A stretch of DNA of 64,000 nt from a virus. The stretch spans positions 62,001-126,000 of the IMG/VR virus record IMGVR_UViG_3300020442_000006. One strand, 5' to 3'. The notes beneath the pieces were generated by a model. The model did no database searches. It was not told the DNA's origin and worked only from the letters and a program-made list of their open reading frames with translations. A program made the translations under genes and the position numbers. Shown here one piece after another: positions 9,968-63,521 of the stretch. The first letter of the stretch is position 1, and each line of letters starts with the position of its first letter.

Positions 9968-9973
9968 AACCCA

Positions 9974-13135: not shown

Positions 13136-14765
13136 TGTCTTCACCATAGATGTTTTCAAGTAAGAATTCATAATGTGTTGGGCATTCATCAGACTTGATA
13201 AACTCATCAACACTCTTGATATAGTCTAGACGCTCATTTCCAATATGAGTGAGTTCATCAATGTTTCCATATCCATTAAACCTAGTTCCCAATCTCAATC
13301 CCATACCTGCAGCGATGAAGTTCATACCTGCAATGTTTGCTCTGAGTGGTCTACCAAGATCAAGAATATCTCCCATCCTCTCGTACTCATCGTTCACCTT
13401 GATGTTACCATCAAACTGTTCGAGCATATACTCACATCTTTGTGATGCGTGTCTCCAATATGGATTATCAGTTCGTTTGCTCAATGCATAGTGCATTGCT
13501 ACGAAGTGACTGAACCCAATCACCTCACGTTGTGCAGCATAGTTGAACCATTGACGCTCAATACCTGATACATAACCCTGACGACGATTAAGAACATCGA
13601 CCAGTCTAAGGATATTCTCGTGAGTTGTCAACAGACCAGTGGATTCTAGTGGTTCAATGAAACCATATGACATCCCGATTGCTACACAATTCAACTCCCA
13701 CGCTTTCTCTCTATATCCGTGCTTGATGTCAATAGACTGGATTTCATACTCATCAGGTTCCAGATCGAATTCTTCATCAATCCACATCTCGAATTCCTGT
13801 CTCGCCTCATTTTCCATAGCGAAACGTGACGACCAACAGTATCCAACTCCGATCCTATCCCACAACGGAATAGTCCACATCCATCCATTATTTGCACCAC
13901 GACAGTCTGTCACATTGTGCATCTTTTCCTTACGTTGTTTCTGTGATGTGTAAGGAATGCGAGCAAAGAATGCTTTGTCGTTTGGTAGATATTTCTCGAA
14001 ACTAATATGACGTACTGCCATCATTTCCTCAATGAGTGCACCCTTAAATCCTGTGCAGTCAATGAAGAGATCGCCTTGTACCCCGATTGTCTTTTTATCT
14101 GCTGCTAGTTTTACTGCAAGTTGTTTGATGACTCTGTTACTTTGGGCGGGAGATCCACCTGCCATAACATCCTTGACCATTCCTCGTACATCACCTGTGA
14201 TGTGTGTGAATCTATCCTGTGATGCAAACGGATAGCATACATCAGTCTTCAAGTATTCTGCGAATCGATCAGCATCAATATGGTAGGCAGTATCACTAGC
14301 AAAGTCAAAATCACGAATCCTCCCATCTTCGTTACCGTATTCTTTATTATGTTCTGCCATACAGGTGTTACCTGCCAAGTAATACTTAGCAAACAACTCT
14401 GGCGGGAACTCATCAGGATATAATCTTTGAAGATCAAAGAAATCTTGAATATCGTTCTTACAATTATATAGATCTGCAGGTCCAAATGGATACTGGAATG
14501 TAGATCCCTTCTCACGGAAGTCTGTGAACTGAATACTGTTCTTATATGTTGCTCCTACCTTCGGCATCCAGTCTTCGTCTTTAAGACCAAGTGAACGCAA
14601 ATACTTATTAAACTGTCCGATAGTTGATTCACCAACTCCGACTGGTTTATGCTTCTTGGATTCGACTAGTACAACACTAATCCAAGGGCATAATTTCAAT
14701 AGTGCTGCTGCTGTCATCCATCCAGATGACCCACCGCCAACCACTACAACATTGTTAACTTGCAT
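13113..14765 (-). CDS. Flavin-dependent tryptophan halogenase-like protein, intact motifs, 550 aa
   Basis: N-terminal FAD-binding VVVGGGSSGWMTAAAL (GxGxxG, residues 6-21), the lysine in GATYKNSIQF near residue 74 that corresponds to the catalytic Lys of PrnA/RebH, the WxWxIP halogenase signature in NGWMWTIPLWDR (near residue 290), and GFIEPLESTGL, the Glu/Ser-Thr region of the chlorination site. All diagnostic motifs are present, so an active FADH2-dependent halogenase is plausible; it would need host or phage reduced flavin. The second half of a tandem pair, 2 nt after halogenase 1. Confidence 0.9.
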   Translation of the reverse strand: MQVNNVVVVGGGSSGWMTAAALLKLCPWISVVLVESKKHKPVGVGESTIGQFNKYLRSLGLKDEDWMPKVGATYKNSIQFTDFREKGSTFQYPFGPADLYNCKNDIQDFFDLQRLYPDEFPPELFAKYYLAGNTCMAEHNKEYGNEDGRIRDFDFASDTAYHIDADRFAEYLKTDVCYPFASQDRFTHITGDVRGMVKDVMAGGSPAQSNRVIKQLAVKLAADKKTIGVQGDLFIDCTGFKGALIEEMMAVRHISFEKYLPNDKAFFARIPYTSQKQRKEKMHNVTDCRGANNGWMWTIPLWDRIGVGYCWSSRFAMENEARQEFEMWIDEEFDLEPDEYEIQSIDIKHGYREKAWELNCVAIGMSYGFIEPLESTGLLTTHENILRLVDVLNRRQGYVSGIERQWFNYAAQREVIGFSHFVAMHYALSKRTDNPYWRHASQRCEYMLEQFDGNIKVNDEYERMGDILDLGRPLRANIAGMNFIAAGMGLRLGTRFNGYGNIDELTHIGNERLDYIKSVDEFIKSDECPTHYEFLLENIYGEDNVQLPEE

Positions 14766-14767
14766 AA

Positions 14768-16258
14768 CTAAGAATCTTCTGTCTTATATAGGGTAGTTTG
14801 ATAATACTCCAACGGTGTTGGATAGTCTGGATCACGTTTAGTTAGGTGATCCATAAACATATCGTCAAAGTCGGGTGATTCGTAACCATCGTGTGCTTTG
14901 ATGACATCGAACCTGTCAGGAATTATATCATATTCATACCCACCTAGCAAGTATAATGCACCCTCAGACAGGTAGTTTAGATTTCCAATCTGTTCGAATC
15001 TCTGTGTCAACACATCAGGGAACTCTGATTGAAAGTTCATTTGATTATAGTGTTTCCAGAATGGTGTGTCATCCCTAGGACTTAGACAATAGTGTGCCAA
15101 TACGAAATCCTTGAATGACTGTAGTCTTCGCTTGGATCCCCAGTTGAATTGTTCTCTGATAAAACCATTGTAGTTGTCCCTCTCTTTAGGAAGAACCTGT
15201 ATCAGATTGAATAAGAACTCGTGTACTGAGTATAGTCCACCTGATTCTAGTGGTTCAATGAAACCACCTGCCAATCCAATAGACACTACATTCTTCTTCC
15301 ATATCTCCTTCCTTACACCTGTAGGGAACTCAAGGAATCTGAATTCCTGTTCATCACCTACACCTAAATGCTGTTTGAATTCTGTTAGTGCATCCTCTTT
15401 GGATTGATGACGGGAAGAGAATACATAACCCGTTCCAATTCGTGACCACGTGGGTGCTCTCCATACCCATCCACTGCTCATTCCTGTGCAGTTTGTGTAT
15501 GCAACTAATTCTTTTGCTTTGTCCTTATATGGTATTCTCGTTGTCCACGCTGAGTCACAACACAATTCATCTACACCACAAATATCTGAGTTCCACGCTT
15601 CCCACTCGGATCCTACTTCATTGCTAAGGATCGCAGCAAAACCTGTGCAGTCTATAAAAAGGTCTGCATCGTGCCAATCGCCACTAGAAACGCGAACTCT
15701 GCTAATCCCATCCACGCAGGATTCAATCTCGCGGACTGTATCTTCAATAAGTTTAACACCTTTAGGAATTGCATAGTTGTGTTTTAGATATTCTGCAAAG
15801 GAAATAGCGTCGAAATGGTAACCAACGTTAAAATGAGTGAGATCTGGGATAAGTTTGCCATTTTCGGCACCGCGTACTGTGTCTGAATATATCAGACCAA
15901 ACGTCATACTGTCAATGTGTCCAACCTTTCTCCAAGTGTAGTAATCAGCAACAGATGCAGGACCTTCAGTCTTGCCGAATGGGTAATGAAAAGGACCCTT
16001 CGGATTGAAGTTCTCGAACCGTACACTGTGCTTATACGTTGCGTCACACTTAGGCATCCAGTCCTCATCCTTGAGACCAAGATACCTGACAAATGTATTA
16101 AAAAATTGTGTTGTCGCTTCTCCCACACCAATTCGAGGTGTAGTAGGAGATTCGATCAACACAATCTCTTTTGTATTACCAAAATGTTTCGCTAGAACAC
16201 TAGCGGTCATCCACCCTGCACTGCCACCACCGACAATACAGATTTTATGTAGTTGCAT
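14768..16258 (-). CDS. Flavin-dependent tryptophan halogenase-like protein, variant signature, 496 aa
   Basis: Same layout as the neighbouring halogenase: CIVGGGSAGWMTASVL at the N-terminus, DATYKHSVRF with the catalytic-type Lys, and GFIEPLESGGL. The WxWxIP signature reads SGWVWRAPTWSR, with Ala for Ile, and the EPLES motif is followed by Gly-Gly rather than Thr-Gly. It may be an active enzyme with different specificity or a flavin-binding partner. Starts 6 nt downstream of the 172-aa structural-type gene, so it shares its transcript. Confidence 0.85.
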   Translation of the reverse strand: MQLHKICIVGGGSAGWMTASVLAKHFGNTKEIVLIESPTTPRIGVGEATTQFFNTFVRYLGLKDEDWMPKCDATYKHSVRFENFNPKGPFHYPFGKTEGPASVADYYTWRKVGHIDSMTFGLIYSDTVRGAENGKLIPDLTHFNVGYHFDAISFAEYLKHNYAIPKGVKLIEDTVREIESCVDGISRVRVSSGDWHDADLFIDCTGFAAILSNEVGSEWEAWNSDICGVDELCCDSAWTTRIPYKDKAKELVAYTNCTGMSSGWVWRAPTWSRIGTGYVFSSRHQSKEDALTEFKQHLGVGDEQEFRFLEFPTGVRKEIWKKNVVSIGLAGGFIEPLESGGLYSVHEFLFNLIQVLPKERDNYNGFIREQFNWGSKRRLQSFKDFVLAHYCLSPRDDTPFWKHYNQMNFQSEFPDVLTQRFEQIGNLNYLSEGALYLLGGYEYDIIPDRFDVIKAHDGYESPDFDDMFMDHLTKRDPDYPTPLEYYQTTLYKTEDS

Positions 16259-30192: not shown

Positions 30193-32655
30193 CTAATTCA
30201 GCATAATGGGTAGTCCTACGAACTGTGCTAGACCACCTGTGCAACCTGCTGTGAATACACCTGTTCCGACTGTATATGTAGCAACACCATTGGTGACAGT
30301 GTTTAGAATACCACCACCTGCTCCAGTAACGAATTCTCCGATACCACCTTTAGGAGTCTTAACAAGAGTCAAGTGACCACCTGCTGTACCAGAAACTAGA
30401 TCCACCATACCCCCAGGTTGTCCTGTACACTCAGCAATACGAACGTGTGCAGCAGGGAGAGCAGATGTACCACCACCTGATCCACAGATAGTAAGGTCAA
30501 GACCTTTGATCATTGTGCATCTACCTGTCAACCCAGGCATAGGGTTAAGTGCTCCGATATTCTGGAAGATAACGTTGTTAATAAATTCTGATTTCCACGC
30601 TGCCTCATTAATAATCTCACCAGAGACAGTGTTCATCAACGTTGCACACTTATGATTGATAGCAGATGCGTTGAGACTGATTTCATTGTGAGCATTCAAC
30701 TTAATGTTTGCTGCTTGAATCATATAGTCACCCTCATAAGCAACGTTATAGTCTGATGAGAATGTCTGTGCAGTTTTAGACTGCTTTGCACCTGATACAG
30801 GTTCACCATCGTCACCTGTCTCAACATTCTGTGAGAGGTGTGTATTCATTGCACCACCAACTTCAAGGTTGAGATCACCCATAACCTTCAGAGTGAAGTC
30901 ACCTTCAACAGTCAGTGTTTTATTCTTCTTGATAGTCTTACATTCATCTCTACCAATGATCTTTGTATCATTTCCAGGGACGTTTGTATGCTGATCACCA
31001 AGTGCAGTAGCGATTACAGTTTGACCACCTGCGTGCTGTACAATAGTTTTCTCTTTTCCTGGGGTGTTATCTTGAATAGTCTTTGCACCATTCAAGAATG
31101 TCTCTGCCTTAACAGCATAAACATCAATATCTTTCATCAAAGACTTGAAGTATTCTCCCTTTGATTTTGGTTTAGATCCACCTACACTACCCCCATCATA
31201 CAGAGTTACCTCCTGCATTAAGAATTCTGGTGCTGTTTCACAAGTTGATGTACCCAACAAGGGTAACCAGAATTTTTGTTTCGGTTGTTTTATCGATCGT
31301 CCACAATCTTTGTTGCCAAAGAGTGCTGCGATGATTCCCATAATAATAGAAACGACTGAAGCAAAGTCAAGTTTTGAGAAGTCAAACTCAAATAGAGTGT
31401 TCAATGAACCTTGAACTTTACGTGCAACACCTGCTGCTTTTTGAGCAACACCGATTGCTGATGTAATTGTATTAGCAACACTAGAAACTTTGCTGATACC
31501 GTTCTGAATCTTACCAAGAACACCGTTTACTGTATCAGTAACTTTTTCAGCGAAACCACCAACCACTTTGTCAACAACTTTCCCTGCAATATCATCGGCG
31601 AATCCCGATATATCACCCATCGCAGATTTAAGTTGTCCAAGAATAAATTTACCTTCGAAACTACAGAACAAATTGGTGATGAAATCAGCAAGTTTCGTAA
31701 TGGAACTAATAACACCTGTAGGGACGACGTTACTAATTGCACCAAGAATCGAACTCATCAGCGATTCGATCTGTTTCGCGAGCATTTGTTTTAGAGAACT
31801 CATAATGCCGCTCATAGCAGAAGAAACATAGTTCTTGATACCTGCCAGAGATTCATTCACGACATCGTTGAAAACCTTCTTACCAGTAATGAGTGAAGTT
31901 AGGTTACCATTTAGGTCTCTGCCTAAAGTTCCACTAAGTTGTCCAAACTCCGTCAACATTCTGTTAAGGTCTTTCTCAAAACCTTCTCCACTGGGACCGA
32001 CCACTCCATTTCCGATGCCTTGAACATCTGGAGGAACACCAGTAGGGTTCGTGTACACGTTTCCATTCGATTCCTGCTCAAGAATCGATAGAACACCATT
32101 GGATTTCTCTTCACCACCATTCTCATCCCCAGGTGTAACGCTTCCATCTACAACGAAACTGTTACCCTGATTGACAACCTGCCCTTTAATATCCTTGGCA
32201 GTTTCGGGCATCTCTTCTTCGGTGAGTGCCTCTGTGTTGTCAGCGATAGTGGTTGCCGAGACACCCTCGTCGCTTGTGGCAGAATCGTCACCTTGTTTAG
32301 GATCAGACATACCACGGAATCCACGAATAGATCCCATCACAACGGGGAGTTGTGCTTCTTCCCCGTCAAGGAAAAAACCTAATACCTGTGCACCAACTTG
32401 CAGTTCAGTCTTTGTACCAGTATTCTTGATACCTGCCTGATCAGTAGGCAGCATAACGACTGCCCAAGGAAGATCCTCTGTAGGAATTTGATCAAGATAT
32501 GACTGACCACCAGTACCTGTGTACCATCCAACAATCCTCACCTTGACTCTGCCAAGCATTTGAGGATCCTTGATCGATTCGACTTCACCTAACCACCAGG
32601 TGAACCCGTCACGACCCATTACGTCAGATTTTCCAATAGGTGCTACTGTTGCCAC
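30193..32655 (-). CDS. 5: Baseplate hub protein gp5 (VgrG-like spike), 820 aa
   Basis: The N-terminal OB-fold (GFTWWLGEVESIKDPQMLGR, VKVRIVGWYT, then LPWAVVMLPT, residues 15-115) is the gp5/VgrG module that caps the tail tube. Residues about 215-470 are hydrophobic helical repeats, and about 560-820 a beta-helical spike with regular Gly/Asn-rich strands. T4 gp5 (575 residues) has a lysozyme domain between OB-fold and spike; I see no lysozyme catalytic motif here. TATAAT is absent but a GCTAAATA late motif lies 22 nt upstream. Confidence 0.85.
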   Translation of the reverse strand: MATVAPIGKSDVMGRDGFTWWLGEVESIKDPQMLGRVKVRIVGWYTGTGGQSYLDQIPTEDLPWAVVMLPTDQAGIKNTGTKTELQVGAQVLGFFLDGEEAQLPVVMGSIRGFRGMSDPKQGDDSATSDEGVSATTIADNTEALTEEEMPETAKDIKGQVVNQGNSFVVDGSVTPGDENGGEEKSNGVLSILEQESNGNVYTNPTGVPPDVQGIGNGVVGPSGEGFEKDLNRMLTEFGQLSGTLGRDLNGNLTSLITGKKVFNDVVNESLAGIKNYVSSAMSGIMSSLKQMLAKQIESLMSSILGAISNVVPTGVISSITKLADFITNLFCSFEGKFILGQLKSAMGDISGFADDIAGKVVDKVVGGFAEKVTDTVNGVLGKIQNGISKVSSVANTITSAIGVAQKAAGVARKVQGSLNTLFEFDFSKLDFASVVSIIMGIIAALFGNKDCGRSIKQPKQKFWLPLLGTSTCETAPEFLMQEVTLYDGGSVGGSKPKSKGEYFKSLMKDIDVYAVKAETFLNGAKTIQDNTPGKEKTIVQHAGGQTVIATALGDQHTNVPGNDTKIIGRDECKTIKKNKTLTVEGDFTLKVMGDLNLEVGGAMNTHLSQNVETGDDGEPVSGAKQSKTAQTFSSDYNVAYEGDYMIQAANIKLNAHNEISLNASAINHKCATLMNTVSGEIINEAAWKSEFINNVIFQNIGALNPMPGLTGRCTMIKGLDLTICGSGGGTSALPAAHVRIAECTGQPGGMVDLVSGTAGGHLTLVKTPKGGIGEFVTGAGGGILNTVTNGVATYTVGTGVFTAGCTGGLAQFVGLPIMLN

Positions 32656-32834: not shown

Positions 32835-32989
32835 TGTCTAGGATAATAAACTTCAACAAAAGAATTGCACTTAGGGCAACTCAAATTTGTGACCATAGAA
32901 TATTCTGAGGAGGTGACTGGATAGTCTTCTTCGTCAAGACTATGGTCTCCTCCCCAGATCAATTCAGTTTGGCAATGCCAACATTTCAT
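32831..32989 (-). CDS. Small zinc-ribbon-like protein, 52 aa
   Basis: MKCWHCQTELIWGG ... LSCPKCNSFVEVYYPRQ has two CxxC pairs about 35 residues apart, as in zinc ribbons. It overlaps the metalloprotease gene stop by 4 nt. Zinc binding and any transcription or DNA role are inference. Confidence 0.6.
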   Translation of the reverse strand: MKCWHCQTELIWGGDHSLDEEDYPVTSSEYSMVTNLSCPKCNSFVEVYYPRQ

Positions 32990-33675
32990 TTAATGTAATT
33001 GTTTTCGATTAACCACTTCTTTGTGAGAGGAGTGGGGTTGTAGTGTTCCCACATCGGAGTATCTGATGCACACACTTTAAGTGCGTCAGCAGTTAGATCC
33101 TCTGTGTGACCTGCCCAAAATGCTTCCTTTTCCCAAGGAATTGCTCCAGGGTTTTGAAAATACGTTCTCTCTGCCATATCCTGCCACATTTTAGGAACTC
33201 TGTCCTCTGGGTAGATAATAGCGAGAAGCGAATTCTCAAGGGTGCCTGCCATACAATCCTGAGCAGCGTGCCAACCTTCGTGTCTGACTACTGCCATAAA
33301 CACGTGAGGACGACTAACGTATGCTTCGTTGAGATAGAAGTTATTACTCACAGTGTGGTAAACACCTCTATGTCCAACAGGAAAATACTTTGGACTTGCA
33401 ATATAAACGTTTATTCCTAATTTGTCAAATGACCTTGAAATACTGTCGAATTCTTGTCTAACTACGTTGAAGTTTTGGTTAGAAAAAATCTTTTGAACAT
33501 CGTCCGTATTACGGACCCTTTTTACATCTTCAGTACACTCCTGTAGTAACATACAACCCATAGCATCATTTGTAAACCACCCTTTAGTAATTTTACCTTC
33601 AACGGGTTTTGGTAGTGAATGTGCTGCTACAGGTAAACTCAAACTCAACAATGTCGCCAATAGGACATTACGCAT
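32986..33675 (-). CDS. Secreted zinc metallopeptidase-like protein, 229 aa
   Basis: N-terminal signal peptide (MRNVLLATLLSLSLPVAAHS, cleavage near AHS-L). HEGWHAAQDC near residue 132 is an HExxH zinc-protease motif (here H-E-G-W-H), and EKEAFWAGHTEDLTAD further on may supply the third ligand. Cysteines in CMLLQEC suggest export to an oxidising compartment. No family assigned with certainty. Possibly processes a periplasmic or virion protein; the adjacent oxygenase overlaps its start by 8 nt. Confidence 0.7.
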   Translation of the reverse strand: MRNVLLATLLSLSLPVAAHSLPKPVEGKITKGWFTNDAMGCMLLQECTEDVKRVRNTDDVQKIFSNQNFNVVRQEFDSISRSFDKLGINVYIASPKYFPVGHRGVYHTVSNNFYLNEAYVSRPHVFMAVVRHEGWHAAQDCMAGTLENSLLAIIYPEDRVPKMWQDMAERTYFQNPGAIPWEKEAFWAGHTEDLTADALKVCASDTPMWEHYNPTPLTKKWLIENNYIK

Positions 33676-34231
33676 ACGAAATCCATCCAGTTACAATAAG
33701 TTTCTTTTCATTGGGAGCAGGAACACCGTGATGAATATGAGTCCAATCAACTGGCCACAGCAATGTCAGTCCCTTTTCGGGTTGAATTGTGAGGTCTTGA
33801 TGCACCCATTGGGTCTCACCGCCTTCTTGCACTGTATTTAGGTAGGTCATCCAGACAAGATGTCTGAAAGATGTAGTCTTATTTGAACCCACTCTTTCGC
33901 AGTGGGGTTGTGAAAATGCTTGCCCTGGTTCATATTCTTGGATATTGAATGGTTCGATAACCTCCAAATCCGCCATTTTTGCCCAAGGATATTGATCAAC
34001 GTACAGTTGAATGCACGCTTGTACCTCATCCAAGTAATTTGTAATTCTCGGATCTTTAATCCAAGATGGCACAGACATATCCGTGGAGTTCTTAATGAGT
34101 GGATCGGTTCCACCACTATATTCGCCAGGGACTTTGGCAAGATAATCACAGGTATTGTAGAAATCTACTACACCGTCAATAATTTCTTCTTTTATTTTGC
34201 CACCCGCAATAAACGATTGTACTGCTGCCAT
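33668..34231 (-). CDS. 2OG-Fe(II) oxygenase, 187 aa
   Basis: FSQPHCERVG gives HxE, WTHIHHGVP the distal His and KKLIVTGWI a basic residue for 2-oxoglutarate; MTYLNTVQEGGETQWVHQD is the typical phage P4H strand. One of three oxygenases outside the 7-12 kb cluster. It overlaps the metallopeptidase gene by 8 nt and lies near the CP12-like gene. Substrate unknown. Confidence 0.8.
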   Translation of the reverse strand: MAAVQSFIAGGKIKEEIIDGVVDFYNTCDYLAKVPGEYSGGTDPLIKNSTDMSVPSWIKDPRITNYLDEVQACIQLYVDQYPWAKMADLEVIEPFNIQEYEPGQAFSQPHCERVGSNKTTSFRHLVWMTYLNTVQEGGETQWVHQDLTIQPEKGLTLLWPVDWTHIHHGVPAPNEKKLIVTGWISYA

Positions 34232-34486: not shown

Positions 34487-35860
34487 CTATGAGGTTACAC
34501 TATCTTTAGATAGGTGTAAACGTGTGGTTAACCCAGTGGGACTATAATCGTGTATGAGTCCCGTGATAAGATACCGTCCTGAATAAATTGGATCCAATAC
34601 AGTTCTATCCTCTTCGTTTTTCGAAGCAGGTATTTTACATTCAATAACCATACCGACAGTTAATGATACATTACCTGGGATGGTTATGTCAAGTGTGATA
34701 GAGTTCAGCAACTGCCATCGTGAATACGAATATGCACTAGCAGCAACTGTATCTGTATCCATACTGCCTGCGGATGCGGATCCGTCCAAGGCGGTTTTTG
34801 CATCCTTCATCCCTGGCAAGGCACGAATCTTCGTACGAGTTGGTTTTTTCTCATCGAAGTATTCCTCCTTAATTTTAGGGAATGGGAATGCATCGTTAAG
34901 CGTTTCTGCTTCACTAAACACCTGTAACAGGGTTTGAGTCACAGGTTTTTTGATTGAACCAGATGGTCCATCAGATCCACTACCTGCTGAAGGTAGATTC
35001 CCTGAGGTAAGTGCAGGTGCTTTAACACCGATAACAGTATTTACATAAGCACCAGTCCTCATCTTTTCCAGATGGTTTCCCTGATCTGGATAGTTCATCG
35101 ATTCTATATTATAAGCGTTAAACTCAGAATCGCCAACATTTGCTTGTTCATATGTGAATTGCGGGATATTTCCCTCCACATTCATCAATTCTCCCTTGGT
35201 AAGGGTGTCTATTGTATTAAAATAGAACCCATTCTTGTTTTCAAAGAACATATACCCCGATTTTTTTGTTTCCGAAGAAACAATTTTGTCTGAGATATAC
35301 GCAATTACATCAAATGGTCTCCAAGAGGGAGATATAAAATTGAAGTTGCCTGTCGATGCCTCATACGAGTATTCTCGACCTGCAGACTTCAAATACTTTT
35401 CGACAACCTCTTTTACGTGATCTACACCAGTCTTATTTTTGAATGACTTAAAGACTCTGTTGGTTTCATTATTATATGCTTCTGGTGAAACAGTGTATAT
35501 CACATATGCTTGCATTCTCTCAGATTTGGTTACAGAACCAATCTTGAAAATACGTTGTCTGATTGACAGAGGTTGATCTGGAGCACTATCTGACTCCAAT
35601 TCGATTTGAATAAATTCATTACCAGTCAAATCAGAAATCAAGTCCATAGTATCTGCTATTGCGAGTTCCATCCTGAGAGAAGGAGACTGGAGAGATTCAA
35701 TATACTTAAATCCAGGGCAAATACCTCTAATATCGATCGGGTTACCATCCTCAGGTGCTATCTCCTCGATCGTTTCTGAAGGTTTATACTCATCACTCAT
35801 ATACAGATTGAACTGTTTGATCGTATAACCTTTCGCCTGATATGTGGATTCTTCTGCCAT
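34487..35860 (-). CDS. Baseplate hub protein, gp27-like, 457 aa
   Basis: MAEESTYQAKGYTIKQFNLY... has barrel-like strands at the N-terminus (YIESLQSPSLRMELAIADTM) and a central region (VDHVKEVVEKYLKSAGREYS) resembling gp27/phage tail hub D proteins. A C-terminal beta region ends IECKIPASKNEEDRTVLDP. T4 gp27 is about 390 residues, lies next to gp5 and forms the hub collar; this gene's position near gp5 and tape-measure genes agrees. Overlaps the tape-measure gene by one base. Confidence 0.6.
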   Translation of the reverse strand: MAEESTYQAKGYTIKQFNLYMSDEYKPSETIEEIAPEDGNPIDIRGICPGFKYIESLQSPSLRMELAIADTMDLISDLTGNEFIQIELESDSAPDQPLSIRQRIFKIGSVTKSERMQAYVIYTVSPEAYNNETNRVFKSFKNKTGVDHVKEVVEKYLKSAGREYSYEASTGNFNFISPSWRPFDVIAYISDKIVSSETKKSGYMFFENKNGFYFNTIDTLTKGELMNVEGNIPQFTYEQANVGDSEFNAYNIESMNYPDQGNHLEKMRTGAYVNTVIGVKAPALTSGNLPSAGSGSDGPSGSIKKPVTQTLLQVFSEAETLNDAFPFPKIKEEYFDEKKPTRTKIRALPGMKDAKTALDGSASAGSMDTDTVAASAYSYSRWQLLNSITLDITIPGNVSLTVGMVIECKIPASKNEEDRTVLDPIYSGRYLITGLIHDYSPTGLTTRLHLSKDSVTS

Positions 35861-37908
35861 TAGAATAGATTACTCAAAGAACTAGATGCTTCAGCAACTC
35901 GACCAAATCTACTGGTGAGGAACTCAGCAGCAGGATTGGGATGTGTTTTCTGGTTAACTACAGTACCACCGCCACCTGCATTTGTTGCAGTTTTCTCTGT
36001 GGGTAATATGATAGCATCAGCAACTATAGTCTCTACTGCAGCATTTAGGTCATCACTCTTGACCTTTGTAGCAAGACTCTTAATATTGGTAACTGTCTTC
36101 TGGATAATTTTACCAGTTCGCTCTTTTAGAGCAGGGGGCATAATATCAACAACTTTATTGACGACACCACCAATATTTTCACTAGCAGATTCAATATGAG
36201 GTTTGATGAATTTCATCGCTGCTGCTGCGTGTGGCGGTAAAGTCGCATTTGCTGCTACAGATGAAATTTTATCTAAAAATCCACCAAATGAGTATCCTTT
36301 ATATTGACCATAATTTGTAGGGGGCAATGCAGGGGGTGATGTGAGAGATGATTTTGAACCACCGAAGTTAAATGGAACTACACCACCTTTTGAGAATTTT
36401 GGTACTTTATATCCTGCAGCAGACGCCTGTCTAATTCTTTGACTTGTAAGATTGGGATTTTTTCGCGTATGGGGGGTATCAAACGGTACCACAAATCCCC
36501 CAGAGGATCTTTGTGCCACATATTCAGTTCCGTGTCCGATAAAGGAAACCGACTTACCACCATCGAGTGATACTGGGTAACCTGATTGTGGTCCAGAGAT
36601 CCACCCACCTTTGGACTTCTCTGGTAGCACTGCGGTCTGTGGTCGAATCAGACCACCTTTTGACATCTCATCTGGATTGCCTGTATTGTCCCCTGTAGTG
36701 TCCGCTGCGTCCATCCTGTCTTGGACCCCAGGAATCATTTTGAGGAATCCAGTCAATCCTTCCAACATTTTGATCAATGGGAAGAATACGACCGTACCCA
36801 TCGTCTCAGCAAATGACATCAATCTAGGTAGATGTGGTTTTATCGCATCTACGATCATCTGCAATGGTGGACCCATTGCCTTGAAAAGTTCGTCTATCGC
36901 ATCTCTAAGTGGTTTGAACAATTTGTCCAAAAACTCCATCATAGTATCGAACATTTCCTTCATTGTATTGAAGAAATTGCCCACCATAGGTCCGAGGAAC
37001 TTACCTGCCTCTTTTCCTAGTAATCCACCAACAGCGTTACCAATCAATCCACCGATAGGACCTGCAATCTTGTTACCGATCATACCAAGTGCTATACCGC
37101 CACCTGCAGCACCTACACCTGCACCTCTCGCTGCTGCTACTCGATCTTCTTCAGCACCATCGTAGTTCTGCATCACATCTTGGTATGCCATATAACCTTG
37201 GGCACCCGCCATCGCCATCTGACCAAGGGCATTCCCGCCAAGGAATTTACCCAAATTCATAATACCTTTACCAACAGTGGTGATGATACCACTAAATGCT
37301 TTGATGGTTCCGATAGGATTCTTCAGGAACGCTATACCTGCTAATACAGCAATTCCTGCACCAAGCATTTTTGCTGCCGCTTTGAATCTAGTCCATCCAT
37401 CGCTATCTTCACCAAATAACTCACCAAATTTCTGTTTCCACCAATTTATCGTGTCTCCAATCCACTTGAAGAACCCACTTATCATCTCAAACCCTTTTAT
37501 TATCTTCTCTCGGTTCTCTTTCTTAGATAAGAAGTTCAGTGCACCAAAGATCAACAGATTCTTGAGGAATTTCCACAAGTAATCCATAAAACCCATAGCA
37601 GAACCAGTGGTGTTTCTGATTGCGCTATCTGCACTTACTTCTTCTGCCTCTATCGCTGCTTCTCTTTGTCTATCTGCTTGGAGGGCAGCAGCACGTCTCT
37701 GGTCCTCCATTATTCGTGCTTGTGCCTGCTGATTCTTCTTTAGAGCAATACCAATGCTGTTTACAGTTGCTCCTAGGGAATTAATTGCTTTAACTGTTGG
37801 GACGAAACCTGTGGTGGTAAATGTTTTTTTACCCACAGTCATCTGTGCACCATCCGCCTCTTTGGGTGGTGTTACATACTTATATAACCTGATACGATTT
37901 TCTGACAT
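35860..37908 (-). CDS. Tape-measure-like hub protein, copy 1, 682 aa
   Basis: MSENRIRLYKYVTPPKEADG..., an N-terminal charged coiled coil (QQAQARIMEDQRRAAALQAD), then hydrophobic helices (LLIFGALNFLSKKENREKII; GAGIAVLAGIAFLKNP) and a Gly-rich middle (GAGVGAAGGGIALGMIGNKI). The same order of segments occurs in the next gene, so the two are paralogues. Tape-measure proteins set tail length and help DNA delivery (T4 gp29 is about 590 residues). Confidence 0.65.
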   Translation of the reverse strand: MSENRIRLYKYVTPPKEADGAQMTVGKKTFTTTGFVPTVKAINSLGATVNSIGIALKKNQQAQARIMEDQRRAAALQADRQREAAIEAEEVSADSAIRNTTGSAMGFMDYLWKFLKNLLIFGALNFLSKKENREKIIKGFEMISGFFKWIGDTINWWKQKFGELFGEDSDGWTRFKAAAKMLGAGIAVLAGIAFLKNPIGTIKAFSGIITTVGKGIMNLGKFLGGNALGQMAMAGAQGYMAYQDVMQNYDGAEEDRVAAARGAGVGAAGGGIALGMIGNKIAGPIGGLIGNAVGGLLGKEAGKFLGPMVGNFFNTMKEMFDTMMEFLDKLFKPLRDAIDELFKAMGPPLQMIVDAIKPHLPRLMSFAETMGTVVFFPLIKMLEGLTGFLKMIPGVQDRMDAADTTGDNTGNPDEMSKGGLIRPQTAVLPEKSKGGWISGPQSGYPVSLDGGKSVSFIGHGTEYVAQRSSGGFVVPFDTPHTRKNPNLTSQRIRQASAAGYKVPKFSKGGVVPFNFGGSKSSLTSPPALPPTNYGQYKGYSFGGFLDKISSVAANATLPPHAAAAMKFIKPHIESASENIGGVVNKVVDIMPPALKERTGKIIQKTVTNIKSLATKVKSDDLNAAVETIVADAIILPTEKTATNAGGGGTVVNQKTHPNPAAEFLTSRFGRVAEASSSLSNLF

Positions 37909-40322
37909 TAGAACCCACCTGATGTGAATGATCCGAGATCAGTGTGAATGACCTGAGTATTGTCAACGCCAACAGTTTCTTTCACTGTCTTGATGATTGG
38001 TTGCATAACGACCACCTGTGAAGAATCACCTGAAGTAAGTTCAGTGTCTTGTCTTTGAGATGATGATGTTAATTCACTAGTCTTCGTACTATTTAGATCT
38101 GTACTAGTAATACTCCTGTTATCAGGAGTGCTTGGTGGTCCACTGCTCAACTTTTTGGCACCTTTAGCGATAGCAACTCTTATAGTTTTTGGCATCACCT
38201 TTTTATATTTTTTCACAAAATCCTTATCTTTTTTATTACCTGCAACACCACCAAGAGTCACACCAACACAACCTGCAGTACCATTGTCATTAATATCATT
38301 ATGAAGTTGAATTGCAGATCTTTTACCAATCGTACCACTCATATTGTTAATAAAGGTAGACCAAATTCCAATACCTTTTACATTTCCGTGTTCTGCAAAT
38401 CCAACAAGAGGATAAGTACCATCTGGTAAAGGATAATAAGCACCAGATACGTTTCTTCTTTGTTTCTGTGATGTACCTGCTGTATTATATGTACCACTGA
38501 TTGCTTCCCACTGACCAACCTTCTTATTCTTACCATCAAACAGACGTAACACACCAGTAGCACCATCACCGTGTCCTTGGAAATCTAAACGTCCTCCTGG
38601 TGGCACAGGACCGTCATCTGGACCCTTACCTTTATTAGCAATAGATGGATCGGAAACCATATCAGTTTGAGGTTGTGCCATCTCAATCTCTTGTAATGCT
38701 ATTGCTGCTTCTCTTGCTTTCTTTTTAGCGTGGGGTATTAAAACCTCTTCCCAGTGCTTCGCTTTTTCATCGTTAGTTGAACCAAGTGGGTTACCGTGAC
38801 CATTTCCGATGTGCATACCTGGTGCACCATTGGATGTCCTGATGACACCATCAACACCAAACCAGATTGATCTGCTTCCACCCTTACCCTTTGCTTGACG
38901 CTTCTTAATCTTCTCTAACTGCTTAGTCAGATTTCGAACATCATAATCCTCATTCTCTGCCTGAGCGATTGCTTTCTGAGCATCTGAACCAAATGCTCTC
39001 GCGAAATTATTCGCTGTTCCTTGTGCAAGTTTGACACCATTCTTAATGAACCACGCTGCTTTCTCAATGATCCAGACAATACCATCTAACGCTCCTTGAG
39101 CAAGAGGACCTGCAATGAAATCCATAATGGCACTGAACGCCTTGGTTGCAATAGGTGCAACCGCATCAATAATGATTCCAAATAATGCTTTCAGTGGTTC
39201 AAACAAATCTTTCAGTGGTTCTACCAGTGGCATTAGATATGCTTTCCATATTGGTAGAGCAATATTCTTAAAGAAATCACCCATAGGTTTCAGAATGGGT
39301 TCCATTGACTCTCCAAGGAACGCTCCAATCTTATCTCCAATAAATCCACCCAAGACACCACCAACAAGAGGTGCAAATGGTCCTAAGACAGGCACCAACA
39401 ATGCAGTTACCGCAGTAGTACCAACAGCAGCACCGATACCTCCACCTGCTGCAACGTTCAACTTGTCACCTGCAGCGAGTCTAGATCCAAATGCAAACAC
39501 ACCTGACAGTGCACCTGCACCGACAGGAGATTTGAAGAACTTACCCATCTTACCTAGCAACTTGCCGCCACCACCAGGTTTCATCCCAGGTTTTCCTTTT
39601 AATCCTGGTCTTGTGCCAGTATTTTGCATCTGGCGCTGTTGGATGCGCTGCTTCTGTAACTGACCTGCCTTTCTATTTCCTTTGAATAGTTTAGATAGTT
39701 TACTTATATCTCCTGCAATTTTCCACGGTCTTAATATTCTACCTGCTACAAAAATACCTGCGAGACCACCTATAACTTTCAGTGCTCTCATTACAGGTCC
39801 GTCGTTACCATCTGGATCAAACAGACCATCGTAGATCATAGAGAAACCCCACGATCCAACTTTCCATACAGTTCCCAACCACTTACCGATCCACGAGAAA
39901 CCAGTCTTGATCATCTCTTTGTTCTCTGGTTTGGATAAGAAATCCAATGCAAAGAACGTTGCAATAGTACCTGCAAATTGAATTAGAGGTTGGATTAGTG
40001 GTGATAGCAGTCCAAAGATACCACTGCCACCCTTCTTATATCCTCTTGCTTCTGACTCCTTGTCAATATTTTCTGCTGTCTTCTTCTCAATCTTTTTCTC
40101 TCTCGCCCTGTCTTGTGCTAAAGACCTTCTTCCTTGCACCTGATACGCTGCATCTAGTCTCGCTTGATGTGAACTGGTTAGAATTTTACCTACATCAGTT
40201 ACAGTTGCTCCAAGTCTGTTGACCGCCAAGGTCATTGACATAGCAGGATCTCTCTTGTCCATACCTGAGGTAGTGACAGGAAGAAAGTTTCTTATTTGTA
40301 ACTTGGGTGCTGATTTTGCCAT
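37908..40322 (-). CDS. Tape-measure-like protein with C-terminal L,D-transpeptidase-like domain, 804 aa
   Basis: N-terminal 500 residues parallel the previous gene: charged coiled coil (REKKIEKKTAENIDKESEAR), hydrophobic segment (FAGTIATFFALDFLSKPENK) and a glycine/alanine-rich hydrophobic middle. From about residue 590 a domain begins: LRLFDGKNKKVGQWEAISGT, LPDGTYPLVGF, then SAIQLHNDINDNGTAGCVGV near residue 680. The His...Ser/Thr-x-Gly-Cys arrangement is that of YkuD/DUF2778 (Tlde1-like) L,D-transpeptidases, with Thr-Ala-Gly-Cys-Val. It could cut or cross-link host peptidoglycan during injection (inference). Its ATG overlaps gp51's stop. Confidence 0.7.
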   Translation of the reverse strand: MAKSAPKLQIRNFLPVTTSGMDKRDPAMSMTLAVNRLGATVTDVGKILTSSHQARLDAAYQVQGRRSLAQDRAREKKIEKKTAENIDKESEARGYKKGGSGIFGLLSPLIQPLIQFAGTIATFFALDFLSKPENKEMIKTGFSWIGKWLGTVWKVGSWGFSMIYDGLFDPDGNDGPVMRALKVIGGLAGIFVAGRILRPWKIAGDISKLSKLFKGNRKAGQLQKQRIQQRQMQNTGTRPGLKGKPGMKPGGGGKLLGKMGKFFKSPVGAGALSGVFAFGSRLAAGDKLNVAAGGGIGAAVGTTAVTALLVPVLGPFAPLVGGVLGGFIGDKIGAFLGESMEPILKPMGDFFKNIALPIWKAYLMPLVEPLKDLFEPLKALFGIIIDAVAPIATKAFSAIMDFIAGPLAQGALDGIVWIIEKAAWFIKNGVKLAQGTANNFARAFGSDAQKAIAQAENEDYDVRNLTKQLEKIKKRQAKGKGGSRSIWFGVDGVIRTSNGAPGMHIGNGHGNPLGSTNDEKAKHWEEVLIPHAKKKAREAAIALQEIEMAQPQTDMVSDPSIANKGKGPDDGPVPPGGRLDFQGHGDGATGVLRLFDGKNKKVGQWEAISGTYNTAGTSQKQRRNVSGAYYPLPDGTYPLVGFAEHGNVKGIGIWSTFINNMSGTIGKRSAIQLHNDINDNGTAGCVGVTLGGVAGNKKDKDFVKKYKKVMPKTIRVAIAKGAKKLSSGPPSTPDNRSITSTDLNSTKTSELTSSSQRQDTELTSGDSSQVVVMQPIIKTVKETVGVDNTQVIHTDLGSFTSGGF

Positions 40323-40515: not shown

Positions 40516-41220
40516 CTACGCGAAAAAACTTGCTAGTCCTTCAAGCACGATGGGTGATGTAACTTCAGTTTTAGGATTGAAAACCTCAATAGTATGAGTA
40601 AGTTTAGGCATAGTTTCAAAGAACTTCTGAACCTTAGCGAACTGTACTGAATCCATACTCTCGTAGAATTCTACAAGTTCCTTGGTTGTATGATCCTTTC
40701 CTTCATATACTTCCTCGCCTTCAGCAATATTATCAGTACAAGAGGCAGCGAGTTTGAATAGATCATCTACACCTGGATCATCAACGAGATTATTTTTCAC
40801 GAACACATCCAGTGAAGGATACTTCATAGTAATAGTAATATCATCGTTGAGTACAAGTTTGTTGGTATGTTCCTTAGGAATTTGTACCTTAACTTCATCC
40901 AGATTGACTTGAATGTCAACCTTAGTGGTCTCATCGTCAGGACAAGTGATTTTGAATTCACTCACCTCACCTACAGATTTACCACGGATCTTAAGGAAAA
41001 GATATTCAATATCAAAAGTGGCAAGTTCATTAACGTTCTTAATGTTAGTGCACGCTTTGATAATATCTTTAACCGCTTTGATCATCTCCTTGTTATCCTG
41101 TGTCTCCATAGCAAGGTAAAGAAGTTTCTCTTCTCTTACTAGGAAAGGTCTGTAGGTAACCTTTTGTCCACGAGGAAGCACGCATTCATAATCTGGAATG
41201 CTCAGTTTAGGTAAAGGCAT
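40516..41220 (-). CDS. 26: Baseplate hub protein gp26, 234 aa
   Basis: MPLPKLSIPDYECVLPRGQK, VTYRPFLVREEKLLYLAMET is the gp26 N-terminal signature (T4 gp26 is 208 residues). It then has alternating helices and a C-terminal VFNPKTEVTSPIVLEGLASFFA. The last codons contain the slippery run (40522-40528), and the TAG follows two codons later. A TCTAAATA late motif lies 27 nt upstream of the ATG (41247-41254). Confidence 0.75.
   Translation of the reverse strand: MPLPKLSIPDYECVLPRGQKVTYRPFLVREEKLLYLAMETQDNKEMIKAVKDIIKACTNIKNVNELATFDIEYLFLKIRGKSVGEVSEFKITCPDDETTKVDIQVNLDEVKVQIPKEHTNKLVLNDDITITMKYPSLDVFVKNNLVDDPGVDDLFKLAASCTDNIAEGEEVYEGKDHTTKELVEFYESMDSVQFAKVQKFFETMPKLTHTIEVFNPKTEVTSPIVLEGLASFFA
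40522..40528 (-). promoter_or_regulatory. Candidate -1 frameshift slippery heptamer T TTT TTC
   Basis: In the gp26 frame the codons are AGT TTT TTC GCG TAG, giving the heptamer T TTT TTC. Slipping by one base continues, with no stop, into the gp51-like frame. A short imperfect hairpin (GTAG/CTA region, 40511-40520) lies immediately after it. Confidence 0.55.
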
Positions 41221-48702: not shown

Positions 48703-49299
48703 TTATCTGAGGTCCAAAGATTTTGTGTGAATACCGAACAATCCTCTGATAAAAATATTAAAAGAGAGACTCATTCGTGGGGTAAGATTTGTACCCTGTG
48801 GTACATAGTGTACTAGATGTGAGGGAAAAATACAAATCATCCCTTGTTGAGGGGTAACTTTATATAGGGAACTATTGTACATATTCCATCCCTCAATGTC
48901 TGGTTCGATCATCTTGTACTGATTCTTATTGAAGATCAATTCGGATGATCCCACAGGTGCTGTAAGGAATATGACACCACTGTACATACTATTAGTATGG
49001 TCGTGGGAGTCCGCTGCTTCACCATCATTCAGTTTACTGATCCAAGAATTAGTAACTTGGATGTCGTGCTTCTGACTGATACCTTGAACAGCATACACAT
49101 ACTGTTTGATGTGGTGGTTTGTCCATTCGACAAACTCTTTAGGCATTCTAGCAAGAACGTTAGGGTATTGCGTCAGTGCTCCACCACTAGGTACGCTTTC
49201 GAATGAAAAACCTGACACTACTTCAGTAACGTCAGGCATCTTACCATCATTATCAATGTAAAGAGGAGATGAAAACAATGGAATAACTTCCATCGTCAT
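48703..49299 (-). CDS. 2OG-Fe(II) oxygenase superfamily protein, 198 aa
   Basis: SHDHTNSMYSGVIFLTAPVG (H-D-H), SHLVHYVPQG (distal His) and TPRMSLSFNIF (Arg) match the 2OG-FeII_Oxy_5-like group. I take the ATG at 49299, which overlaps the thyX stop as TGATG and follows a GAGG site; the TTG at 49302 is an alternative. Here it lies among nucleotide-metabolism genes rather than structural ones, so its substrate may differ from the cluster's. Confidence 0.8.
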   Translation of the reverse strand: MTMEVIPLFSSPLYIDNDGKMPDVTEVVSGFSFESVPSGGALTQYPNVLARMPKEFVEWTNHHIKQYVYAVQGISQKHDIQVTNSWISKLNDGEAADSHDHTNSMYSGVIFLTAPVGSSELIFNKNQYKMIEPDIEGWNMYNSSLYKVTPQQGMICIFPSHLVHYVPQGTNLTPRMSLSFNIFIRGLFGIHTKSLDLR

Positions 49300-50021
49300 C
49301 AATCAATCCTCAAGCAAGGTTGTAGATCATCCCAATCCTCAGGACAACCACAGTCTTCATCTGGACACCAGTCAAGTGCACTAGAAATGATAGGGAACTG
49401 ACAGATGAAGTGTGTCTTCACGATGTCAGCGATACGTTTGTGCTCTAGTTGCGTACCGTTCTTCTCACGCAACTGAATATAATGAATCCAGTTACGAAGA
49501 TTACCTGTCATATAAAGTTTGGTTGGTGTGGCGAGTGGAAGCACAAATCTTGCACACTCTTTTGCGATCCCATCCTCTACCATTTTCTTGTAGAGATCCA
49601 TCGCTTCATCAAAATGTTTTGCAACTAGAATCTCATAACGTTGCTTAGTATATTCATCAACGTCATCGATACTGTTCTGTCTGTTCTTTGTATCTTGTCT
49701 GCGTAGATCAAACATAGGAATTTTATTGTCCAACTGTGATGCATCAGCATACCGTTGGGAAAACTCTTGGAATGTGAATGACCTGTGTCTCAAGATCTGA
49801 GCAGCGATTGCTCTAGTCGTACTGATTTCCAGAGTCATACTTGCCTGCTCAAACACAGACCAGTGACCGTGCTTAATACAATACTTAAGGAGTCCTGATA
49901 CGTTAGGGTTCTCCTGATTCTTGGGGTTGCTTACGCGAGCGATGTATCCGATAGTCTTCTCAGCGTCAGGTGTGACAGAGACTAGGCATACCTTGGTGGT
50001 GTCAGTCGGCATTAGTAACAA
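49299..50021 (-). CDS. thyX: Flavin-dependent thymidylate synthase ThyX, 240 aa
   Basis: RHRSFTFQEFSQRYADAS (near residue 79) is the ThyX motif RHRxxSxQxxSQR in variant form. ARFVLPLATPTKLYMTGNLR NWIHYIQLR matches the C-terminal core. It converts dUMP to dTMP with methylene-THF and NADPH through FAD. Overlaps the upstream membrane-protein gene by about 20 nt. Confidence 0.9.
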   Translation of the reverse strand: MLLMPTDTTKVCLVSVTPDAEKTIGYIARVSNPKNQENPNVSGLLKYCIKHGHWSVFEQASMTLEISTTRAIAAQILRHRSFTFQEFSQRYADASQLDNKIPMFDLRRQDTKNRQNSIDDVDEYTKQRYEILVAKHFDEAMDLYKKMVEDGIAKECARFVLPLATPTKLYMTGNLRNWIHYIQLREKNGTQLEHKRIADIVKTHFICQFPIISSALDWCPDEDCGCPEDWDDLQPCLRID

Positions 50022-57426: not shown

Positions 57427-58515
57427 TCAACCGATGCTAGGTGCAGTAAGTGCAACAGGCACAGACTCAGCAGCAGCAAGATCAAGAGGGAAGTTGTGAG
57501 CGTTACGCTCGTGCATAACTTCCATTCCAAGACCTGCTCTGTTCAAGATGTCTGCCCAAGTAGGAATCACAGAACCGTTTGCGTCAAGCACAGACTGGTT
57601 GAAGTTGAAACCATTTAGGTTGAATGCCATTGTACTTACACCCATTGCAGTAAACCAGATGCAGACCACAGGGAATGCAGCAAGGAAGAAGTGCAGTGAA
57701 CGTGAGTTGTTGAATGAAGCATATTGGAAGATCAAACGACCAAAGTAACCGTGAGCGGCAACGATGTTGTAAGTCTCTTCTTCTTGACCGAACTTGTAAC
57801 CGTAGTTCTGTGACTCTTGCTCAGTTGTTTCTCTGATAAGAGAAGATGTAACAAGAGAACCGTGCATAGCACTGAAAAGTGAACCACCGAATACACCTGC
57901 AACTCCAAGCATATGGAATGGGTGCATCAGAATGTTGTGCTCTGCTTGGAACACGAACATATAGTTAAAAGTACCTGAGATACCAAGAGGCATAGCATCA
58001 GAGAAAGAACCTTGACCGAAAGGATAGACCAAGAACACAGCGAATGCTGCTGAAACTGGTGCAGAGTATGCAACACAGATCCAAGGTCTCATACCCAAGC
58101 GGTATGAAAGTTCCCACTGACGACCACAGTATGCTGTGATTCCGATAAGGAAGTGGAATACAACGAGTTGGAAAGGACCACCGTTATACAACCACTCGTC
58201 TAGTGATGCTGCTTCCCAGATAGGGTAGAAGTGTAGACCAATAGCGTTTGAACTAGGTACAACAGCACCAGAGATGATGTTGTTACCGTAAAGCAATGAA
58301 CCTGCAACAGGTTCTCTGATTCCATCGATGTCCACAGGAGGAGCAGCGATGAATGCGATGATGAAGCAAGTAGCAGCAGTAAGCAGGCAGGGGATCATCA
58401 AGACACCGAACCAACCGACATAAAGACGGTTGTCTGTGCTTGTCACCCACTGACAAAACTCGTCCCAACCTGAGAGGAGTCCGCCACGCTGACGTGTAAG
58501 TGTTGAACTAGACAT
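57427..58515 (-). CDS. psbA: Photosystem II D1 protein PsbA, 362 aa
   Basis: Nearly complete host-like D1: five helices, [60 protein letters not shown], and [16 protein letters not shown] near the Mn-ligand C-terminus, with the processed tail [16 protein letters not shown]. The residue equivalent to host 130 is Gln (GRQWE), the low-light D1:1 type. N-terminus [12 protein letters not shown] is about three residues longer than host D1. It replaces photodamaged D1 during infection. It has its own promoter, structured leader and terminator, so it is independently transcribed. Confidence 0.98.
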
Positions 58516-59165: not shown

Positions 59166-59717
59166 TTACACTTTAATTCCGACAAACCCGAGTATTTCCT
59201 CAAGGTAACCCAGTCGTTTTTGATTTGAACTTGTAGATTGAACTTTTTCATCGGAGACTTTTGAGAGTCTGTCCAGGTAATTATATGTATATGTCTTCCT
59301 TGGTCCTTCGATTCCCCATCCCAACCATCTGTATGCTGCATTGTGGTACTCACCGTAGGTACGACCTGGGATCTTCCAAGTGAGTAGTGCCTGTTGGAAC
59401 TGGTACTCGTTAGACATATAACGTAACTGTCCATAGAAAGAAGATGGATTCAATCCATACTTGGCACAGAACCTACCGAGTCCTTCATAGCGTGACTCAG
59501 TTGTCCATTGAATCAAACCATACCCACCCACGTGGCAGTCTTGATACTCTACACGAGCACCACCTTCACAAATGTTAGGGGTGAAGTTCGATTCCTGTTT
59601 GATGTTTGCCATAACAACAGAAAGCGCCAGAGGATCTGTGATCCCTTGACGCTGCTGTAGATACTGTAGTGCCCTTGTCTCGTTGAAGGTACACGTTGCA
59701 CAGATCCATTCAATCAT
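59166..59717 (-). CDS. Lysozyme-like peptidoglycan hydrolase, 183 aa
   Basis: ANIKQESNFTPNICEG...GGYGLIQWTTESRYEGLGRFC (residues 36-85) is the phage tail-lysozyme/transglycosylase motif: Glu in KQES as catalytic acid, then GYGLIQW. The remaining helices (QLRYMSNEYQFQQALLTW) fit a lysozyme fold. There is no signal peptide, so it could act from the virion or, with a holin, as endolysin. It lies beside the psbA region, not the tail genes. Confidence 0.75.
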   Translation of the reverse strand: MIEWICATCTFNETRALQYLQQRQGITDPLALSVVMANIKQESNFTPNICEGGARVEYQDCHVGGYGLIQWTTESRYEGLGRFCAKYGLNPSSFYGQLRYMSNEYQFQQALLTWKIPGRTYGEYHNAAYRWLGWGIEGPRKTYTYNYLDRLSKVSDEKVQSTSSNQKRLGYLEEILGFVGIKV

Positions 59718-62006: not shown

Positions 62007-62189
62007 TTAAGATAGATCATCAGGTACAACTTCTTCGGGTGCACCTATCATATCAAACTTTTTGACTCCGTGGTCAAATTTGAGGATACGCTCAATATGT
62101 CCTTTAACTTCCCAAGGAAATTTGGTCTCCGCTTCCACGAAGACCTCACCAACCTCAGGAATGTTTACCTTCTGTCTCCAAAGTTTCAT
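62007..62189 (-). CDS. Small conserved cyanophage protein, 60 aa
   Basis: MKLWRQKVNIPEVGEVFVEA ETKFPWEVKGHIERILKFDH. Beta-rich small domain; familiar in cyanophages near talC. ATGA overlap with the talC stop, so it is coupled to it. Function unknown. Confidence 0.6.
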   Translation of the reverse strand: MKLWRQKVNIPEVGEVFVEAETKFPWEVKGHIERILKFDHGVKKFDMIGAPEEVVPDDLS

Positions 62190-63395: not shown

Positions 63396-63521
63396 TTATT
63401 TAGCAACATCTTTCTTTTTGTAACGTTTTCTATTCCTACGGATACCTATACCTTTATCTCGTTTAAGATCCCGCTTAAGTTGCCTGAGGAACTTAAGATG
63501 TAGTTTAAGTTGATTATGCAT
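63396..63521 (-). CDS. Very basic small protein, 41 aa
   Basis: MHNQLKLHLKFLRQLKRDLK..., mostly Lys and Arg (RNRKRYKKKDVAK). It overlaps the end of the oxygenase gene by 76 nt. Its composition could bind nucleic acid. Coding status moderate. Confidence 0.4.
   Translation of the reverse strand: MHNQLKLHLKFLRQLKRDLKRDKGIGIRRNRKRYKKKDVAK

Follow-up and report, generated by a model that had tools for sequence, protein, structure and literature searches.

The window, the whole stretch of DNA analysed here, covers 64 kb of a 187,493-base IMG/VR virus record. Its ORF list, read by eye, includes a psbA-like protein (57427-58515) and a transaldolase-like protein (62186-62854), which fit a cyanophage. 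Also apparent by eye, on the minus strand, are two adjacent tryptophan-halogenase-like flavoproteins and several 2-oxoglutarate-oxygenase-like proteins (13113-16258 and 7323-11866, 33668-34231, 48703-49302, 63446-63994).

The gene of interest encodes an 804-aa protein within a tail hub cassette (Table 1). A sequence-only reading of this DNA had placed the ORF correctly, leaving out the strand. The motifs it quoted from the C-terminal domain are present, including His674 and Cys685, which both lie in HNDINDNGTAGC (encoded at 38268-38303, minus strand). Upstream of the gene are gp26 and a tail-tube-like protein; downstream follow a 682-aa ORF, a gp27-like gene and gp5. The 804- and 682-aa proteins are paralogues (BLASTP, 27% over 371 columns, E 4e-15). 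The longer one consists of the paralogous helical and hydrophobic core (residues ~30-465), a linker (466-574), a domain of predicted L,D-transpeptidase fold (575-728) and a low-complexity tail. Between gp5 and the gp27-like gene, a 229-aa protein (32986-33675, minus strand) shows by eye a signal-peptide-like start and an HEGWH motif (HExxH, metalloprotease-like); searches of Pfam (at E 1) and the PDB (at E 10) gave no match to it.

Table 1. Positions of the genes, domains and residues discussed (window coordinates unless a locus prefix is given)
Feature	Position	Strand	Basis or remark
804-aa gene	37908..40322	-	ORF list; BLASTP against the 682-aa neighbour
Predicted L,D-transpeptidase-fold domain, residues 575-728	38139..38600	-	Borders of the low-divergence segment common to L005; agree with predicted strands
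Codon of putative catalytic His674	38301..38303	-	Alignments
Codon of putative catalytic Cys685, in Gly-Thr-Ala-Gly-Cys	38268..38270	-	Alignments
682-aa paralogue, second gene of the pair	35860..37908	-	No Pfam domain; no recognised enzyme
gp27-like hub protein	34487..35860	-	phrog_350, E 3e-93
gp5-like spike: OB domain, ~400-residue helix-rich middle, spike repeats	30193..32655	-	phrog_694; no recognisable lysozyme
gp26-like baseplate hub protein	40516..41220	-	phrog_150, E 2e-78; upstream of the pair; survey anchor
Lysozyme + YkuD-like fusions	L149:5329-6582; L156:1353-2495; L152:3212-4489; L153:2954-4495; L154:2954-4504

Fold and relatives of the C-terminal domain

An AlphaFold model of the domain, built from a 37-sequence alignment, has a pLDDT of 86.4 and a pTM of 0.85. 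With VIA-align, its closest structures are Pgp2 and Csd6 (Z 12.3 over 128-131 residues at 2.7-3.2 Å), followed by Bd1075 (10.0), YkuD (9.9), LdtMt1 (9.5) and DpaA (9.3). Among the matches listed, every one that reaches Z 8 is an enzyme of the L,D-transpeptidase fold. A Foldseek search of the PDB gave a single match under 0.001, again Pgp2 (E 3.6e-4). Residues 575-728 thus almost certainly adopt the L,D-transpeptidase (YkuD) fold, with the conserved His and Cys of a putative cysteine enzyme, as the sequence-only reading had proposed. The predicted fold comes closest to two L,D-carboxypeptidases, Csd6 and Pgp2, and not to the cross-linking transpeptidases, since the classical YkuD enzymes score at most 9.9.

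Foldseek against viral models returned three cyanophage homologues, a Nodularia phage endolysin, a phage 'tape measure domain protein', a Tlde1-domain protein and a DUF5675 protein. One model of the same fold (BFVD A0A7G9A4H1_3, E 2.9e-5) is labelled 'Tape measure domain protein [Bacteriophage sp.]', so the combination of fold and label already has a precedent among predicted structures. In the open-licence PMC literature we found no paper joining a YkuD/L,D-transpeptidase domain to a tape measure or a cyanophage tail.

Sequence profiles left the domain unnamed. None of the Pfam families of this fold matches the 804-aa protein at E 1 or below, the window domain alone matches only DUF5675 (at 0.16), and NCBIfam and PHROGs gave no credible match. 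Across the 37 domain copies, Pfam matches were all weak and below the curated cut-offs: Tlde1 (DUF2778) in 6 (best E 0.0018), DUF5675 in 4 (best E 0.03) and YkuD in 4. Against PF03734 (YkuD, cut-off 23.4 bits) the window was unmatched and its best close relative, L014, scored 18.0 bits; against PF10908 (Tlde1_dom, cut-off 30.1 bits) the window was likewise unmatched and L038 scored 17.2 bits. Weak YkuD matches appeared in 5 of 10 members scanned singly, with the Cys at profile position 123 each time if the match end is ungapped. The phage's own genome gave no matches to PF03734, PF10908 or PF18925 even at E 10, and a PDB sequence search with the domain profiles found no L,D-transpeptidase at E 10.

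The motif described for Csd6 and its relatives is H(S/G/D)X14-19C (PMC4599014), and transpeptidases carry S/T-H-G-C (PMC9638812). The window domain instead reads H-N-X9-C and T-A-G-C: its His-Cys spacing is 11, and the His of SHGC is replaced by Ala, Leu or Gln. The suggested likeness to DUF2778/YkuD holds for the fold and the His/Cys pair, and fails for the PF10908 and PF03734 profiles and the SHGC-type motif. Compared with Csd6 (Helicobacter pylori) and Pgp2 (Campylobacter jejuni), the domain shares the fold and the putative catalytic His and Cys, but identity is 14-17%, the spacing in those enzymes is 16, and the window domain sits on a phage tail protein without their NTF2-like domain.

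Relatives closer in sequence were found fused to lysozymes. A Nodularia phage protein combines a GH24 lysozyme with a C-terminal domain containing RRSAIEVHID...GTAGCVGV; cyanophage S-2L has a related lysozyme, as do Hydrococcus (two) and Microcystis viridis (one), and PG_binding_1 is also present in one Hydrococcus protein and in the Microcystis protein. Profile-profile alignment joins the window-type and lysozyme-fused families with probability 95.9 (E 5.1e-9), placing His on His and Cys on Cys, and both residues are kept in the lysozyme-fused relatives too. Two of the five full-length fusions exceed the Pfam YkuD cut-off of 23.4 (25.3 and 26.2 bits), both of them cyanobacterial proteins from Hydrococcus. 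The profile link and the Hydrococcus scores together mark the window domain as a divergent branch within the fold superfamily. Bacterial genomes yielded three relatives with a lysozyme-type query and none with the window-type alignment.

The fused and window-type domains have the motif RSAI-x-x-H...GTAGC in common. They differ in setting, the former belonging to free lysozyme-fused proteins with a spacing of 14-15 and the latter to a hub-cassette protein without lysozyme. As judged from these sequences, the nearest relatives known here have a muramidase as their working partner, both in cyanobacteria and in cyanophages. The fusion of lysozyme and YkuD-like domain is common to Nodularia phages, S-2L and cyanobacterial genomes, and phage and host cell-wall enzymes look interchangeable in this respect.

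Spread and exchange of the domain

A tblastn search of 50,697 phage records found the domain in 12, representing eight isolates (S-H34, S-N03, S-H38, P-TIM68, MA01, MA10, ME01 and MC09), all cyanomyoviruses. The presence in other cyanomyoviruses that the sequence-only reading had proposed checking was thereby confirmed. A pattern scan of IMG/VR added 59 loci, picked by two peptide patterns; one of these includes the His, a bias from which the tblastn set alone is free. Many domain loci are near-identical contigs and hence not independent. In 37 aligned distinct copies, the invariant features include Ser-Gly, Pro-x-Pro-x-Gly, the His, Asp+2, Ile+3, Gly-Thr-x-Gly-Cys and Gly-Gly, with 20-odd columns beyond the His, Asp+2 and Gly-Thr-x-Gly-Cys; both His and Cys are present in 37/37. 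The intact His...Cys motif occurs in 62 of 64 ORFs matching the domain profile, and the other two end at a contig edge before the motif, giving 62/62 testable copies. The recurrence of the domain is beyond chance.

Between the window and L005, third codon positions differ at 11 of 148 sites in the domain and at 279 of 655 outside it (Fisher p 2e-18). Comparisons with L008, L009 and L010 are alike (279 or 281 of 655 outside, p ~1e-18 to 2e-18). Flanking genes are as diverged as the region outside the domain, with third-position identities of 0.71 for gp26, 0.64 for the 682-aa gene and 0.63 for gp27. A two-break-point fit returned residues 575-728 as the segment, with a gain of 84.3 against a maximum of 15.0 in 60 shuffles. 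Since divergence drops exactly over the domain, the domain appears to move as a cassette, and homologous replacement of just this domain is the simplest reading. The pattern is reversed against L014 (50/148 versus 118/651, p 5e-5) and shows no contrast against L013 (p 0.13). Within the exchanged stretch (38139-38600 versus L005:4204-6699, also L008, L009 and L010), dN (0.086) is close to dS (0.097); in the same comparison, core and linker have dN/dS of ~0.27-0.29.

Wall enzymes in the gene pair and in gp5

Wherever gp26 is present, the domain is encoded by one or other of the long gene pair beside it (56/56 loci; 41 in the first gene and 15 in the second). Eight of 63 domain loci were dropped from this count because their contigs lack gp26 (L017, L043, L048, L051, L053, L054, L058, L061). 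We also surveyed 80 further gp26 loci, from at least 591 relatives, and found the domain in none; this 0/80 is not a frequency, as loci already in the domain set were seemingly left out of the survey. The result does imply that the role of the domain is dispensable or otherwise filled.

The gene pair itself is widespread. Both pair genes were complete at 39 of these loci, and a Pfam scan (E 0.01) found peptidoglycan enzymes in both positions. First genes carry M23 (3), Amidase_2 (2) and one each of Phage_lysozyme2, C39_2, VanY, GH24 and GH19; second genes carry M23 (5), Phage_lysozyme2 (4) and one each of DPBB_1, GH24, Hydrolase_2 and VanY. The counts run per family and not per pair, so pairs with an enzyme number at most 23 of 39, and in L100 and L102 the contig stops before any gp27-like gene. 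Where the domain is present, companions in the same gene (47 scanned) include Phage_lysozyme2 (2), GH19 (2) and Glucosaminidase (1), and the partner gene (38 scanned) carries Hydrolase_2 (5), M15 (4), Phage_lysozyme2 (3), SLT (3), GH24 (2) and others. The S-CREM1 pair has M15 and NlpC/P60. The first genes of S-H34 and S-CREM2 have in common the N-terminus, a short glycine-rich motif and a GH19 C-terminus, and the L,D-transpeptidase-fold domain of S-H34 has no counterpart in S-CREM2. Judging by these domain assignments, the pair serves as a slot in which wall enzymes are exchanged across cyanomyoviruses.

By eye, the S-CREM2 pair (L160:4484-13555) appears to contain amidase-, CHAP/NlpC-, GH19- and two lysozyme-like domains between long Ser/Thr/Asn and glutamine-rich repeats; the parts actually matched to S-H34 are GH19 and GH24 only. 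A conserved module of the window's 682-aa protein (residues ~429-511) occurs in the first gene of L055 (494-3631) and in the second gene of S-H38 (L003:6889-10476), implying that gene order changed or modules were swapped between the paralogues.

The gp5 of the window matches Gp5_OB (E 6e-7) and, below its cut-off of 30.9, Gp5_trimer_C (27.2 bits). As the sequence-only reading had claimed, it lacks a lysozyme as far as Pfam profiles can tell, and its alignment to T4 gp5 covers the OB part and the spike only, not the intervening lysozyme. A model of the gp5 middle (residues 110-560, 11 sequences) was poor (pLDDT 38.9) and gave nothing beyond helix content, so this absence is a matter of sequence profiles. 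A pattern for the T4-lysozyme active site was dropped, as it did not pick up even the GH24 domains that S-H34 and S-N03 are known to have. In the place of the T4 lysozyme, gp5 residues ~165-550 (30976-32328, minus strand) form a conserved, hydrophobic, helix-rich stretch across relatives.

The gp5 proteins of five other cyanophages (L002, L143, L144, L127, L046) likewise yielded no lysozyme family, and PF00959 has no match in the window's own genome record. These phages include ones with and without the new domain, so loss of the gp5 lysozyme would be a lineage trait and not a swap; it seems lineage-wide. The idea that wall work moved from gp5 to a tail protein agrees with the peptidoglycan enzymes found in the pair across cyanomyoviruses, although not as a one-to-one transfer from gp5 to this domain. 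The further proposal that peptide chemistry replaced glycan cleavage is not borne out: other phages pair the domain with muramidases or chitinases, and the window's own genome encodes a lysozyme-like protein. This stand-alone 183-aa Phage_lysozyme2 protein (59166-59717, minus strand; PF18013 E 3e-12; phrog_512, unknown function) is the only PF18013 match in the record and is a candidate endolysin.

Role in the virion and alternative readings

Evidence on location comes from S-CREM2, whose homologous pair (ORF208/209, 1565 and 1456 aa) gave 73 and 71 unique peptides by virion mass spectrometry (PMC10665884); that pair is without the L,D-transpeptidase-fold domain. The S-CREM2 authors regard both proteins as non-structural endolysins that may be packed in the capsid (PMC10665884). 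By synteny the pair is located between gp26/gp51 and gp27/gp5, which argues for the tail hub instead. From the S-CREM2 pair we infer that the 804-aa protein is present in the virion, and a role there during injection is quite likely.

The name 'tape measure', used by the sequence-only reading, is plausible and unproven; the gene's position and its paralogy agree with it. The S-CREM2 tail, at ~418 nm, is the longest cyanomyovirus tail known to its authors (PMC10665884), and those of S-N03 and S-H34, with much shorter pairs, measure 138 and 129 nm. The longest pair seen thus goes with the longest tail, as tape measures would have it, in a comparison of three phages in which the S-CREM2 pair is rich in low-complexity sequence. 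The lengths of the two paralogues correlate (r 0.81, 74 complete pairs, uncorrected for kinship). To call the 804-aa protein the one tape measure would be premature: it has a paralogue next to it, many of its homologues bear the label 'endolysin' or 'chitinase', and the sole profile tested, phrog_167, is non-discriminating (it rings in 14 of 14 control genomes).

Building on the computed fold, the conserved His and Cys, the placement, the domain exchange and the company of wall enzymes, we consider it probable that the domain is a virion-borne cysteine hydrolase that cuts stem peptides during injection, carried on one of two paralogous hub-cassette proteins. We infer its activity, target bond and timing as follows. 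With the sheath contracted and the hub open, the domain would enter the periplasm. There Cys685, with His674 as base, would attack cyanobacterial stem peptides at the bond that follows their third residue. Stems trimmed or cross-links opened locally would then give passage to the tube and DNA.

Enzymes of the Csd6/Pgp2 type have a deep active site with a single path, shaped by the long loops I and III. Both cut the bond between residue 3 (mDAP) and D-Ala4 (PMC4599014; PMC9638812), and Csd6 is thought to be without transpeptidase activity because one access path leads to the cleft (PMC4599014). The closest fold, the hydrolytic partners and an entry role that needs broken bonds make hydrolysis our best guess, and a hydrolase is the probable class. 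Trimming by a pure carboxypeptidase would not alone open the wall; the same bond cut in a cross-linked donor stem would. The shorter His-Cys loop and the replaced His of SHGC mean that specificity may differ from that of Csd6 and Pgp2.

A true L,D-transpeptidase, forming 3-3 cross-links or exchanging D-amino acids to seal or mark the wall at the entry site, would have the same fold and Cys/His pair, and Tlde1a performs both exchange and trimming (PMC9638812). We regard this as improbable given the hydrolases in neighbouring domains and the closest folds, Csd6 and Pgp2, for which the available text reports only carboxypeptidase activity (PMC4599014; PMC9638812). Still less probable, and drawn from the analogy of cellular L,D-transpeptidases that weld lipoproteins, is a transpeptidase that on entry joins the host peptidoglycan by covalent bonds to a virion protein or to the cut stem peptides, leaving the site anchored and either resealed or closed to other phages. 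The shortened loop and the lack of a match to catalytic family models could also indicate a dead domain that only binds peptidoglycan and anchors the hub. That is very unlikely when His and Cys are intact in 62/62 copies reaching the motif and in the lysozyme-fused relatives.

The remaining alternative concerns timing: the protein could be an endolysin for lysis at the end of infection. Many pair homologues are annotated endolysin or chitinase, and the proteins most akin to the domain in sequence, free GH24 lysozymes, go under the names lysozyme or endolysin. We think this unlikely, because the gene lies inside the tail hub cassette at all loci seen, the S-CREM2 pair is in the virion (PMC10665884) and the separate PF18013 protein could serve lysis.

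An injection hydrolase of this kind belongs with the known virion-associated lysins and is no new kind. Lysins in the tape measures of mycobacteriophage TM4 and of enterococcal phages (GH23) are also wall enzymes on a long tail protein, of a different enzyme class; in the available text of an enterococcal survey, tape measures carry only lytic transglycosylases (PMC10194240). The hub protein gp15 of the Anabaena myophage A-1(L) is likewise a cyanophage tail-hub protein with wall-degrading domains, two of them active on host cells (PMC10966104). It differs in carrying endoglucanase, lysozyme-like and peptidase domains on a hub barrel protein of a phage that is not T4-like, and the available description names no L,D-transpeptidase fold (PMC10966104). 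The action of its peptidase and endoglucanase on Anabaena is a precedent for tail-borne peptide cutting in cyanophages (PMC10966104).

If this reading is right, the entry lysozyme that T4 carries on gp5 has been dispersed in T4-like cyanophages, giving way to an exchangeable enzyme slot on a pair of hub-cassette paralogues. One of the plug-ins would have a cysteine peptidase fold, left unnamed on these proteins by Pfam, NCBIfam and PHROGs. It would also demonstrate domain-precise recombination between phage lineages. Many 'endolysin/chitinase' genes would be reannotated as probable virion enzymes, there would be a new candidate lytic module for use on cyanobacteria, and the way in which marine cyanophages get through the wall of their hosts would become open to a defined test.
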